From positions 3,844,001 through 3,908,000 of the forward strand of contig JAHBBC010000001.1 of the NCBI GenBank assembly GCA_019915015.1: a stretch of DNA of 64,000 bases, read 5' to 3'. The stretch is from Auriscalpium vulgare (Eukaryota > Basidiomycota > Agaricomycetes > Russulales > Auriscalpiaceae). The notes under the pieces were generated by a model that saw only the letters and a program-made list of their open reading frames with translations, was not told the origin of the DNA and did not search any database. Each line of letters starts with the position of its first letter. Within the stretch, counting starts at the first letter, position 1. This document shows positions 4,058 through 54,644 of the stretch, piece by piece. Made by a program: the position numbers and the translations under genes.

Positions 4058-5188
4058 CAGAACGTAGAAGTTTTACTCTATTGGCATGGCATCCGACACA
4101 TATCCAGTTGCTCGAGTCGGCCGTCACCGCGGCATCTCCCCGCTGCAGCCAAACCATCTCCTGCTGAGTCAATATCAAAGCCCCCTTTTGTTTTGCGACT
4201 CGCAAAGCGAACAGCAATAACATTGCCGCGTTGCCGCCGACACCGCGGAGATGCAGGCAAGTTGACTCAATAAACGATACAGTCTCTGGTGCGCTTACTC
4301 CTGGCTTACTCTCGACCACCCTGAAGACACACCTTCCATTTACTTGCCTCATCAATGCATCGCCAAGCTTGGCCGCTTGGGTCGCTTCAGCCCCAGCCCA
4401 AGTGGACTTAGTACTTTGCGGTTCCACTAACCAGTCCCTTTCGACTCTTCTACAGTCAAGATTGGCCCTTGACGACCAGCGGCGCGCTCTCCCCGCCTCT
4501 CCCGCTTCCGGCCCTGATGATCCCGGCGTAATTTCAAACATAATCGCTCCTGACGGACGCAACTCTACTGAGCGCGCAGACGACAGGCACGGCGGCGCGG
4601 GCCCGCCGTCGTCAGCTGCTCCTCCCGCCTCCTTTCCAAACTCTCAGGGCCCGGGAATCGCCATCACTTCTGACTTGACTCTATGACGTCGGGGAAACCC
4701 CTTCTGTCTTCCCGATATTGCATCCGTTGGTAGTAGGTTTTTTTTTCGAAGAAGTTCATACAGGAACGAACGGACGTCCAGAAGGACGAAGTGACTATTA
4801 GAACTATACCTGTCTTTTGCCCTGAGGCACTTGGTAACGCAACCATTTCCTCATTTGCACCAGCGGTCAGGCTGCGTCAGGTGCCAACAGTGCCGGGATG
4901 CTACCCGGAGGAGCTTGATGGCCAACGAAATGTTATGGTAATTGTTCCTAGGCGCGGCCGCTGCCATGCGTCGATGCCCAAGGCATCCCCGTCGACCTGC
5001 ACGACTCCTGCATCTCGTCTCTCGATTAAAGCGTGACGAGCGGACTGGTCACGAGCCGGTGGGAGGCGGGGAAGATCGAGAAAATATAGAGTGAACAACG
5101 ATACCTTCCTTAAACAGGCCGATCATGCGGGGTAAGGGCGGGCCGGCTCCCGCAGGACGGCTCCCAGGTCGCGCGTGGGGCAGAAGCA

Positions 5189-49299: not shown

Positions 49300-49307
49300 A
49301 CGGGCAC
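49300..49307. repeat. Left target-site duplication of the hAT element
   Basis: ACGGGCAC immediately before the left terminal repeat; the identical word follows the right end at 54637-54644. Eight bases is the length made by hAT transposases. Confidence 0.92.
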
Positions 49308-49327
49308 TAGCGTTGCGGGAAAAACCT
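49308..49327. repeat. Left terminal inverted repeat of the hAT element
   Basis: TAGCGTTGCGGGAAAAACCT; pairs with the right end (54617-54636), differing only at the fourth base. Confidence 0.92.
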
Positions 49328-49740
49328 GAGTTTTTCCCCGAAAACGTTTTTCCCCGGTAATGTACCTGTATAGTACCGGTACCATACCTGCCCTGCCCTG
49401 GGCCCCAATATACCCGGTACAATACCTCCAGCACGTGATGTGTGTCGGCCCCTCCGGCGCCCGGCGCCGGCCCATGAGCCATGAGGCTCGCAGCCTCGCA
49501 CGCAGACATGGCCGGCAGTCGTAAGGTGGTTGTGCAATGCTACGCGGATGTTTAAGGAGGTATTAGACACATCCCGCCTCGGCATGGGATAGTTGCAAGA
49601 GTGTTGTATGCAGCAACGTGTGTATGATCGACCCGTTGCTGTGATCGACATTTACACTCCGTAGTGAGTGACTAAATGAGGGCGCAATCTTCACCTTCGA
49701 CACTGGCCTAGCACATTTTGCCAACCCTCAAAACTGTCAA

Positions 49741-52700
49741 ATGGCGGACGACGAGGTCATCCACGACATCGACTCATTTCAAACTCTGGGTGATATCCTC
49801 AAAAGAATACCCATTCCCGACGACATTAAACATGTCCTACTACCCACACCAGCCCTGCGCAATGCCGATATCCAAAATTTCCCTGTCCCACCGGAGGCGA
49901 ACGCGCCGTCTCTGCTCCAGCAGAGCACACTCTTCTCGAAGGGCCAAAGCTTCATAACGGCCGCAAATGCAATGGTCCTGCTCTCTAGGCCGATGCCGCC
50001 GCACACCGAGGTGTTGGAAATCCTGCAAAACCGCGTCATCCCCGCCCTAGAGACAGGCTATGCTTGCCTGGGCTATCCTGTTCAAGAGTCGGTCACTCAA
50101 CAAACACTCAAAACCCCGATGTGGGTTCTCACCTACTGGTACGAGGTCCGGCGCATACTCGCTGCCAAGGCGCGCCTTTCTCTGGCCACTGCGTGGTTGA
50201 AGACTTGGACCGAGGGCTTGCTCAACGACGAGGTGAAGTCCCTTGCTGCAGACACGTCAGCACTCCTCGACGACTGGCCATGGGACGTACCCCTCCCAAC
50301 GACGATGGGCGTCGATCCAAAGACGCTTACATCGTACTGTGGTCGGCGTTGGCTGGCGGCGGAGCATATGGATCAGCTGGGGATGCTGCTAGGTCATCGT
50401 CTGCAAAGACAAGGCAAGCCGGCATGTATACTGCCGAGTGCGGCATCAGTCAAGCTCATTGACACGTACCGCAACCGCGCACGACTCAATGCTAGCGGAA
50501 CATCTTACCAATCAATGCGCGGCATCACTCCCCTACGATTGGCTGGCTCGCAGCTGCAAGATGGATCACTCAAGGAGGTTGGAATGACGATCGGGGTGCG
50601 GATCGATGGCGCGGATGTGCTCTTGCCAGCAGCCGTACACGAGACAAATCACTGGGTGTCCGTTGCGATCAGCGTAGAGCCACACACGGCTTTCTATGCT
50701 GATTCTCTTGGACGGAAGCCGCCCCGCGAGCTGTTGGAGATGATAGAATGGTGGTTAGGACAACACGGAGCGACTGGGCCGCTTTCACTCAACGTGTTAC
50801 CATGCACCCCACAGCTCGACAGCTTCTCCTGCTCTGTCCTCAGCCACAATTCTCTTGCTCACCATCTCATCCCCGACGACATCCATCTCCTCTCGGATAC
50901 AGACTGTGTCGTGCAACGCATTCGACACCTTGCTGACATAATGTGTTACCTACGTGACATGGTCAGTGCGCGCTCAGCTTCACTTACTTGCGGACTCGAC
51001 TCACCGACAGTGCAGGACAGTCTCAAATACAAGTCCAATATGCTAGCGCCTGGCATGCTTATACGGGCAAGTGCGCACACATCGGCGTTCACGAAGCCGC
51101 AGTTATTGAGTCTAGAAGGCGTCGTTAAGAGGCGACTGAGTGTAGCCACCAATGTCACGCCACTCACCGTGCCAGCCAAACGCACGAAGAAAAATGCCGC
51201 TTCGAAAGGAAAGGAACCGGCGGAGAGTTCCGGCAATGCGGGGAGCAAGCAGCAGTGGGACGAGGTCTTCAAACCGGCGCCGTTGAATCTGCATATTGCT
51301 GGAACGTCAACTGTAAGTGCCCAAAGAGGTTGTCAGCGCGCGACAGCAGTAAGTAACAGAAGCTTTGCTTACAGGTTGCAAAGCGTTCGGGCGGAAACAC
51401 AGTCGCTACGCACAAGCAGCCTAGTAGTTCACCGGTACTGCAAGACCAGCAGCTCGATGAACAGAAATCAGATGCCGAAGGAGTTGCGGACGGCGCAGCT
51501 CCGTATGTGAACGAGATGGGGGAAGAAGATGGGAGCGACATGGAGATTGAGCTTAACCCTGGTGACCTTGTCAAATGGGTGCAGCCGAAGAAGGATGCGC
51601 GCCGGGGAGGACGGCCGCCGGATCCTCTGATGGACGCTCTCACCGAGGCTTGCTATCGCCGCGACAATCCAACTACGCTGCTCTGGCGCTGTGTCGGAGG
51701 TCCTGATAACCCTTGCCATCATACTTTCCGACATCGAGCGTTGATCCGAGTCGTTCGTCATGCAAAGGACTGCCCCAAGCTGTCCTCAGAGCTGCGGGAG
51801 AAAGTGCACATACATTCAGCTGGAAAGGCACTGTCTGCGCAGGTCCAGGAGCTCACCAATTCGAAAGGATCCATGATGGTTGCGAAGGAACTAGGAGCTC
51901 AAGATGGAATTGGACAAGATGGGGAGAAGCAAGATGCAGGCGCCGCGACACATGCGTTCTTTCGGCAAGCAAAGGCGCTTGGGAAGCTCGAGCGTCACAG
52001 AAAGCTCGACCTTGCCATTCTTAAACTCATATGCGTCGCGGGTTTGCCAACATATATCGTCTCGCGCCCGGAGTGGAAGGAGATGCTTGAGATTGCCTTA
52101 CCATCATATGCACCTTCAACCAGAGACAAGCTCGAATATGAAGGCATCGTAAACGAAGCATCGTGGGTCCGCCGGGAGCAACTCAAGTATCTGCAAGGTC
52201 AGGAAGACCTCACTCTCTCCTATGACGGCGGAACTTCGACAGGTCGTGAGTCCTACTGGACTGTACACGTCTCGACCTCAGACCGTGAAGTATACTTGAT
52301 GGACACACGGGAGGCAACTTCCGAGTCGCACACTGCACCTTGGATTGTTGAGAATGTCGCAAGTCCGGTGCGTGGGCATTGGAACTTAACTACTTCAGCA
52401 ATTTCTAACAACTTCGCGCAGATTGTCAATGCCATCGGTCCGTCCAGGTTTTCCGGCCTGACATGTGATAGCACGGGTAACACGCGAGCCTCGCGTTCCA
52501 TTGCAATTCTGGCCCTCATGCCCACTGCGCTCAATCTTGCGGATGTTTGCCATCACTTGAATCGCACAATCCTTGAGATTAATCTCATTGATGTTTTCAA
52601 ACCGGTGCGCAAACGTCCACACTACCAGCATTAATCAGATCTAATCCGCAACCAGATCATCCGTGTGGTGCGGCAGACAATAACATTATTTCATACCTCG

Positions 52701-54257
52701 CACGCTGGACATGCAGCCCTCAAGAAAGCTCGTGAAAAACTAAAGACAGGACGCGGCCTGGAGGCTATCGGAAAGACGAGATTCGCAACAATCCCGCTCT
52801 CTGCTCGCTCTGTCCATCGGTCCTCAGCTGCGATCAAGAAAGTCATCCGTGAATCGCCTAACGGACTTTATGAGGTACAATTGATGGATCGACTAGACGA
52901 AATGACTTGCTGACAACATTCGCAGGAAATTGCTGAGTATTTTCAGCCTGCACCGGATGATCACCAGACATTCAAGTTCGAGTCTGGTCTCTCCCAGTTC
53001 ATCGCGGCCACTTTGCCTGCAACAAAGGCATTAGCCTGCCTGGAGGCTCTGGAGGCGACTGCTGCCGACGTCTATATATTCTGGCATGCTGTTATTCGTG
53101 CAACAGAGGACGCCTTTCAAAATCCTAGGCTGTATTTTGACGCTGAGGTCGCGAACGCCATCCGCGGCATCCTCAATGCGCGACATCGCCAACTCTTTCT
53201 GGATGGCAACATAGCTAATAATGCATACCTTGCTGCAGCATATCTGAACCCTGGTTAGAGCCATTCTTTTGCTTGCATCTCGTCGCTGTCTTATGTGTGC
53301 ATCAATCAGATCTTATCACGTCGGACCTGTGGCTACCGGAAGGCGAGAAGGTGACACTCATTGGTGTTCGGCATCCATCAATTTTCGAGTCCGTTGTCCG
53401 CTTCTTAGCCAACATCGGAGAGAAAGAGATCGTTCATGGCCATAAGAAGGCATTCTTGAAGTGGGCAAAAAAGGGAAATCATTTACAGCCCAACTTCACA
53501 GGGAAACTCTAGCCTATGCTCGACACCAGTTCCCATTCGATCATCCGCTCGACGATACGGTTCCGCAGGCGGTCCTTAAGTGGTGGAAGGGCCGTGTTGG
53601 CTCTGATAATGTGCACATCCTTCCGGTACGTGTTCGTGTCCGTATGATTCACCGAGCGCTGCCGACTGATGCTGTCATGAATAGCATCTCGCTATCAAAC
53701 TGTATTCCGTCCGAGTCAACTCCATGCCCGATGAACGGACTGGCTCTACATTCACATGGCTTACTCCAAAGCATAGGAATCGGCTATCCGTGCATAACAT
53801 GTCTGCAATGACTCAAGTCCGACAGTACCACATGTCTAAGAGCAAGGTAAGCAACCTCCGTTCTTTATTGAAGTACACAGTGTTCCAACCATTCGAGCAG
53901 GTGCGCGCGCACACTAATCAATTCCCTTCGGTCAAGTTCTACAACATCGAAAAGAAGGTATTCCCCTCTTCAGAAAACGCACCCGCACCGATGTCGGACG
54001 AAGAAGACGACAATGACGACAATGACGTTCAAGGTGAAGACCTGGCAGAACCGTACGAACCTGCCAATGCTTTCATCAAGATGCCTCACATCAACCTGAG
54101 GTCTGCAATTTTATCTGATGTCCTCGCGGAGGAAGCTCAGCTTCCTGCACGTCGGAACCCTGCTGTCGGAGTCAGTGCAGGTCAGGCTAGGGACGAGAGC
54201 ATACCAGATTCTGATGAAGAGGACAATGATTTCAGCACAGATGCCTTGTTTCAATAA
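49741..54257 (+). CDS. Ulp1-protease / hAT transposase fusion, with one -1 frame change
   Basis: Exons: 49741-51312, 51375-52367, 52422-52604, 52656-52874, 52926-53253, 53310-53625 (frame change inside), 53685-53846 and 53901-54257; about 1376 residues. Part 1 (residues 1-524) holds a C48 Ulp1-like cysteine protease core: ETNHWVSVAI (H304), FYADSLGRKPP (D321) and PQLDSFSCSVL (Q358, C364). The 17-residue His-Asp and six-residue Gln-Cys spacings equal those of yeast Ulp1. A basic low-complexity linker follows. Part 2 has a zinc-finger stretch (LLWRCVGGPDNPCHHTFRHR, ending HAKDC) and hAT transposase motifs: DLTLSYDGGTSTGRESYWTV, IGPSRFSGLTCDSTGNTRAS, LADVCHHLNRT, AYLAAAYLNP and NSMPDERTGSTFTWLTPK. 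The 51313-51374 intron is phase 0, so both parts lie in one reading frame. At 53467-53473 the frame must slip by -1; see the findings. The tail is acidic. Confidence 0.85.
53467..53473 (+). other. A-AAA-AAG heptamer at the frame change in the transposase
   Basis: In the incoming frame the codons are GCA AAA AAG GGA; transposase-like sequence (GKSFTAQLHRETLAYARH) continues only after a -1 shift. The heptamer has the X-XXY-YYZ form of known -1 slippery sites. Incoming frame alone stops at 53510. A one-base loss from the A-run or an assembly error would look the same. Confidence 0.6.
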
Positions 54258-54616
54258 GCCTCCCGAGGTTTCAGTATGTATTGTACGCGTTGTTACAATG
54301 TACGCTCGAGTGCTGCGGCAGCCTTGCAAAAGCCGCGTCTGCTGACAAATCATGACACTTGTGTAGCAGGCAGCAGCGAATTCGTACAGGTCGGGGCACC
54401 TACGGCTAAGCTCTGGCAATTTGGCTATGGATACATACACTGCTAAATCTTCATCTGATGCATTGAAACCATTCCAAATCCTCGTGTGTACGCGAAAATC
54501 GAGCTGCTACTGCGTGGGAACTAAACATCACGTGACTATTTCCCTGGTACGGTACCGGTTTGATACCTCCCCGGCTAGGAGCGCCACCGGTACCTTACCG
54601 GGGGGATACTGGCCAG

Positions 54617-54636
54617 AGGTTTTTCCCGCAACACTA
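54617..54636. repeat. Right terminal inverted repeat of the hAT element
   Basis: AGGTTTTTCCCGCAACACTA, inverted match of the left end. Confidence 0.92.
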
Positions 54637-54644
54637 ACGGGCAC
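54637..54644. repeat. Right target-site duplication of the hAT element
   Basis: ACGGGCAC, identical to 49300-49307. Confidence 0.92.

Follow-up and report, generated by a model that had tools for sequence, protein, structure and literature searches.

The window analyzed here, a stretch of 64,000 nucleotides from the basidiomycete Auriscalpium vulgare (contig JAHBBC010000001.1, positions 3,844,001 to 3,908,000), carries what we identify as a mobile hAT transposon whose gene joins an Ulp1-type protease domain to the transposase. In our reading, to which we assign a probability of about 0.6, the protease would be a nuclear isopeptidase which removes SUMO-like tags to help transposition. The transposase would carry the domain to the transposon ends, where it would take SUMO or a related modifier off element-bound proteins or off the transposase, with chromatin proteins, repair factors, and the transposase as candidate targets. 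Removal of the tag would counter silencing or turnover and thus aid transposition. The in-frame union of an Ulp1-type domain and a hAT transposase, proposed in a preliminary description of this DNA, was found to lie within a recently mobile element and to be repeated in a diverged element of the same genome, here called L047.

The hAT element and its gene

The complete element spans positions 49308 to 54636 of the window on the forward strand (5,329 bp), as defined by its terminal inverted repeats (TIRs), a perfect target-site duplication (TSD), and many near-identical copies. The left TIR TAGCGTTGCGGGAAAAACCT (20 bp, 49308 to 49327, forward strand) and the right TIR TAGTGTTGCGGGAAAAACCT (20 bp, 54617 to 54636, reverse strand) form the ends of the sequence and differ by one mismatch, while the two copies of the 8-bp duplication ACGGGCAC (49300 to 49307 and 54637 to 54644) are identical. 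In the genome of 51.6 Mb, exon 1 of the gene has 86 matches including fragments. Forty-five places contain it in full length with an open frame, and at 37 of them, the window's own included, the encoded protein is the same (100% identity). For exon 2, 108 matches were found, counting fragments and the L047 family. At the DNA level, we sampled 20 of the other 36 protein-identical copies. Eleven agree with the window at every base of the element's first 3,505 bp and one has a single mismatch, while eight carry shifts that spoil an ungapped mismatch count over this length. Perfect 8-bp target duplications, each different, flank 18 of the 20 copies (the exceptions being L011 and L014), and therefore the protease part lies inside the moving unit. 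Judged by its sequence, the element is complete and recently mobile, and with 11 of 20 copies free of mismatches over 3,505 bp it is seemingly young enough for continued activity.

Five places that look diverged in protein (L048 to L052) are 98.5 to 99.9% identical to the window in aligned bases, with many small gaps (14 to 335 gap columns, part of them from our end trimming). This base identity led us to reject old families as their origin, and silencing by C-to-T mutation (repeat-induced point mutation) was rejected since no C-to-T excess was detected; they may be indel-bearing copies, reflecting real decay, or assembly noise in repeats. Near both ends of the element, CCGGTA/TACCGG words are clustered (49354 to 49420 and 54551 to 54601), and 7 of the window's 25 such words fall in the element's two 250-bp ends; these clusters are possible candidates for transposase binding sites.

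The transposase is assigned to hAT because of the 8-bp target duplication, found in the window, in 18 of the 20 copies, and in L047, together with the TAGNG ends, the dimerization domain, and a DUF659 match in L047. hAT ends are typically TAGNG, and the TIRs start with TAGCG and TAGTG in the window and with TAGGG in L047. Concerning the domain models, the hAT assignment of the preliminary description held for the transposase part, on which Dimer_Tnp_hAT (PF05699) scores 22.2 bits against a cut-off of 21.4, but not for the whole protein, where it falls just short (21.0 bits). On the C-terminal exon of L047 alone, PF05699 reaches 11.8 bits, below the cut-off. DUF659, a domain tied to hAT transposases, is matched in the transposase of L047 (E 4.7e-4), that is, in one of the two members. 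The blocks SYDGG, DSTGN, and HHLNR, recognized by eye in the window as possible parts of an RNase H-like catalytic core with acidic residues and a (C/D)xxH motif, are kept in L047. No solved hAT structure was found in the PDB with a sequence profile of the window and L047 transposases, and Pfam scans of the window protein gave no match to the KDZ transposase domain (PF18758). Elsewhere in the genome, the hAT dimerization model has 33 matches, none of which, by eye, lies within 20 kb of the listed exon 1 places; other hATs of this genome may be without the protease module.

The gene model comprises nine exons on the forward strand, which encode 1,362 residues without a stop, separated by eight introns of 41 to 62 nt, all GT-AG. 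The predicted protein consists, in order, of a helical N-terminal region, the Ulp1-like domain, a linker, and the hAT transposase. Exon 1 as modeled (49741 to 51312, 524 residues) encodes everything up to and including the linker and is followed by a 62-nt intron (51313 to 51374) at the boundary between the protease and transposase parts, which, as described earlier, lies in phase 0 and opens into the hAT reading frame. A 54-nt in-frame segment within exon 1 (50962 to 51015, GTCAGT...GTGCAG) is likely an intron because L047 has one (4089 to 4137) at the matching place; if it is spliced, exon 1 divides into two and the protein is 18 residues shorter. The transposase part begins with an exon (51375 to 52367) containing the motif RRGGRP, a Cys/His finger-like stretch (51690 to 51779), and the first catalytic block SYDGGTSTGRESYWT. 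The zinc finger reported previously is visible there by eye, although no Pfam family matches it. The next exon (52422 to 52604) carries the TCDSTGNTRASR and CHHLNR blocks and is followed by the exons 52656 to 52874, 52926 to 53253, and 53310 to 53460, the last of which precedes the 41-nt intron 53461 to 53501, the least certain of the model. According to the model and Pfam, the C-terminal dimerization region begins in the exon 53502 to 53625 and continues in 53685 to 53846, and the last exon (53901 to 54257) encodes an acidic tail and the stop codon.

The Ulp1-like domain and its relatives

Profile and alignments place an Ulp1/C48-like catalytic domain at about residues 196 to 407 (50326 to 50961, forward strand, limits approximate). 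Its predicted catalytic residues, which had been pointed out before, are all present: H304 (50650 to 50652, context HWVSV) aligns with H283 of L047 and with the His of yeast Ulp1 in the PDB entry 1EUV, D321 (50701 to 50703, context YADSLG) aligns with D300 of L047 and is opposite a gap in the alignment to 1EUV, and the predicted oxyanion residue Q358 (50812 to 50814) and nucleophile C364 (50830 to 50832), both in the context PQLDSFSC, align with the Gln and Cys of 1EUV. The His, Asp, Gln, and Cys thus follow the C48 order, with 17 residues from H to D and 6 from Q to C. Yeast Ulp1 uses H514, D531, Q574, and C580, with the same two spacings.

From the window copy taken alone, profile support for this assignment is weak: against a curated cut-off of 20.7 bits, Pfam C48 (PF02902) reaches only 15.3 bits with exon 1 (E 0.018) and 14.1 bits with the complete protein. 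The best PDB sequence matches of this copy are to SENP2, at E about 1. The C48 match anticipated in the preliminary description was instead obtained with L047, whose domain scores 30.3 bits (E 4.7e-7), above the cut-off. Furthermore, with a four-row profile built from the window, L047, and two pieces of L076, a member of a third family described below, no PDB entry other than yeast Ulp1 (1EUV) is matched up to E 10, and this one is reached at E 0.026. The assignment is firmer because these relatives add support to the weak match of the window alone. The structure predictions are poor: a model of 407 residues has a mean predicted local distance difference test (pLDDT) score of 36, and one of 209 residues has a pLDDT of 46. 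The Foldseek matches of the latter are all weak, with none of the 241 reaching E 0.001, and the 50 listed include unrelated proteins. Taken together, we regard the domain as a probable Ulp1-type (clan CE, C48) cysteine protease with its predicted His-Asp-Gln-Cys set intact.

A Pfam search of the genome for C48 gave only six matches. Three other C48 places (L053, L054, and L055) look by eye like host genes; L055 (C11:88500-96500), with WLNDHIINYF, NNHW, and SDCGVFC recognized by eye, is an Ulp1-like gene and apparently a host gene. The KDZ transposase model has 168 matches, many with stop codons, in this KDZ-rich genome, whose abundance of such elements, size, and short introns point to a fungus. 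The statement that Ulp1 domains occur in fungal KDZ elements, on which Iyer and co-workers reportedly worked, was not confirmed here, given the six C48 matches versus the 168 KDZ matches. Scanning viral contigs and the genomes of bacteria and archaea turned up no relatives, as expected since the element is eukaryotic.

L047 (contig C24) is a 4,936-bp element with its own inverted repeats and its own target duplication GCCGTGGT. Its domain order is the same as that of the window element and all four catalytic residues are kept; the two are 38% identical in the N-terminal exon and 44% in the main transposase exon (36% to 67% in tblastn pieces). For first, second, and third codon positions, respectively, the fraction that differs in the protease domain is 0.46, 0.35, and 0.66. 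The corresponding values for those transposase exons that were compared are 0.38, 0.34, and 0.66; for the N-terminal region they are 0.46, 0.42, and 0.67, and for the linker 0.57, 0.50, and 0.71. This third-position excess is as expected under protein selection, least so in the linker; synonymous change is probably saturated, which would make a ratio of nonsynonymous to synonymous substitution (dN/dS) unreliable. By this comparison, the fusion architecture is kept across two diverged hAT families, and in the hAT relatives found in this genome the two parts stand together rather than as separate genes, in line with the earlier proposal.

The N-terminal exon of L047 has 21 further matches in the genome, at 27 to 35% identity, three of which were read: L076 (C2:743300-749300), L077 (C14:531500-536500), and L078 (C1:4200500-4206500). 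They share a common sharp left border at different sites and are 99.6 to 99.9% identical over 4.4 to 4.6 kb. The N-terminal plus protease module of L076, with its intron removed, aligns to L047 with a score of 207 (1000 shuffles gave at most 64) and to the window with a score of 126 (shuffle maximum, 66), and the H, D, Q, and C are kept. Besides this module, these elements contain a finger-like stretch with Cys and His residues and a part that resembles a transposase but not the hAT of the window; in the part read, what follows the module has no significant BLAST match to the window or L047 transposase and no Pfam family at the curated cut-off. The motifs VVSYAADG, QDSNHGRKTYRNN, and TEVCEHVFG may point to a P-element-like transposase. 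Apparently, the third family bears a related module on an unrelated transposase. A reverse transcriptase-like open frame, noted by eye, runs up to the left end of the third of these elements (L078:2-1435).

These relatives bear on whether the protease is a piece of a host gene that the element picked up and carries along without function. Grapevine elements often contain transduplicated sequence of this kind, ULP pieces included (PMC2528002). Such a passenger state is nevertheless highly improbable for the domain described here, whose frame is open and whose sequence is conserved in two diverged hAT families, with its catalytic set and a third-position excess, and which has a related module in the third family.

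One chain or separate products

The linker contains a basic stretch, PAKRTKK (51172 to 51192), possibly a nuclear localization signal, recognized by eye and aligned to PSKRQKI of L047, and a conserved peptide, GNAGSKQQWDEVF (51232 to 51270), also aligned in L047. The motifs P-KR-K and GNAGSKxxWDxVF are thus conserved between the window and L047, and the linker alignment scores 68, a value reached by none of 2000 shuffles in each of two tests (maxima, 63 and 56). In the window, the conserved linker continues the open frame of the protease, with or without the intron 50962 to 51015, whereas in L047, which has no counterpart of the intron 51313 to 51374 at the same place, it sits in an exon running unbroken into the transposase. 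Since the same linker is on the protease frame in one family and on the transposase exon in the other, one fused protein is argued for, and a single chain would be the simplest account.

Alternatively, one transcript might yield two products: with the intron kept, a free protease acting mainly in trans and, upon splicing, the fusion or the transposase. Retention of the intron 51313 to 51374 would end the window product at 589 residues, 65 past exon 1, and retention of the intron 4089 to 4137 would end that of L047 after 400 residues, right after the protease domain. A separate start is also conceivable, the first Met of the transposase exon being residue 572, ahead of the finger-like stretch and the first catalytic block. 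Against this, the shared linker is hard to explain unless one chain is normally made, and the intron 51313 to 51374 ends in standard GT-AG. The 90 nt surrounding it are identical in 19 of 20 copies, which carries little weight as the copies are too young. On balance, we deem the two-product account unlikely.

A further alternative is self-cleavage, e.g., after the Gly-Gly of RRGGRP (residues 600 to 605) at the start of the transposase part, freeing an active transposase. Ulp1-class proteases cut after Gly-Gly, and the two hAT families both keep RRGGRP immediately ahead of the finger-like stretch. However, this only Gly-Gly common to both near the junction may equally be a DNA-binding motif, the linker Gly-Gly of the window (SGGNT, residues 529 to 533) is by eye without a counterpart in L047, and the part read in the third family does not significantly match the linker or the transposase of either. 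We consider self-cleavage distinctly improbable.

The preferred reading thus remains a protease tethered to its transposase. More tentatively, an N-terminal helical-plus-Ulp1 cassette may be exchanged as a unit among fungal transposon superfamilies that are unrelated to each other, namely hAT and at least one more, and strip SUMO-like tags at the ends of its own element, with intron retention switching between free and tethered protease; this broader scheme is possible but doubtful.

Comparison with known systems

In one open-access library, which leaves out Repbase and most subscription journals, no hAT with an Ulp1 domain was found among the listed titles and openings of abstracts, nor did a search on SUMO and transposases turn up anything of use; the main text of PMC12062965 does not mention C48 or Ulp. 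As far as can be told, a hAT with an Ulp1 domain is new, while Ulp1 is already known in Mutator, CACTA, and Ginger1 elements. The window element resembles the hAT superfamily in its 8-bp TSD, short TAGNG TIRs, and C-terminal dimerization domain, and, through L047, in DUF659, and differs from it in about 500 extra N-terminal residues with an Ulp1-like protease.

Ulp1-type domains have been described in plant Mutator-like elements (MULEs) and CACTA elements, with rice proteins containing both Tnp2 and ULP1 domains reported for CACTA (PMC2528002). In grapevine MULEs, the ULP sequence follows the transposase frame and may have either orientation, and the grapevine hAT family Hatvine-6 has captured sequence for which no ULP is reported in the section consulted (PMC2528002). 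Those MULEs and CACTA elements belong to other superfamilies, whereas in the window the Ulp1 domain precedes the transposase at the N-terminus, shares its frame, and is conserved between families. Ginger1, like the window element, has an Ulp1 domain and a transposase in one protein, but its Ulp1 or OTU domain is C-terminal and its transposase has its relatives among Gypsy integrases; for Ulp1 or OTU, a part in transposition was proposed (PMC2836005).

The removal of ubiquitin-like tags by a transposon-encoded enzyme has a parallel in Helitrons with VTD or OTU deubiquitinases, which rely on another protease family and on rolling-circle transposition; in zebrafish, three of the Helitron VTD domains showed activity toward ubiquitin (PMC9741609). 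In the TET/JBP hAT7 elements of rust fungi, a fungal hAT likewise carries an additional enzyme that is believed to act against silencing, although that enzyme is a dioxygenase acting on methylcytosine and the TSD is of 7 bp (PMC12730594). The main text of that report contains none of the terms Ulp, protease, SUMO, SENP, and peptidase.

If our reading is true, hAT would join those groups of transposons that encode a ubiquitin-like protease of their own, here tethered N-terminally to the transposase, and the old guess that such proteases serve silencing escape, transposase stabilization, or repair steering would become testable. The presence of three families with related modules in one genome suggests that the cassette is useful to the elements. 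With Ulp1, SENP, and NEDP1 (C48), the window domain shares the His-Asp-Gln-Cys order, the spacings, and, as far as the poor model shows, the order of secondary structure, and it differs from them in its low sequence identity and in being joined to a transposase.
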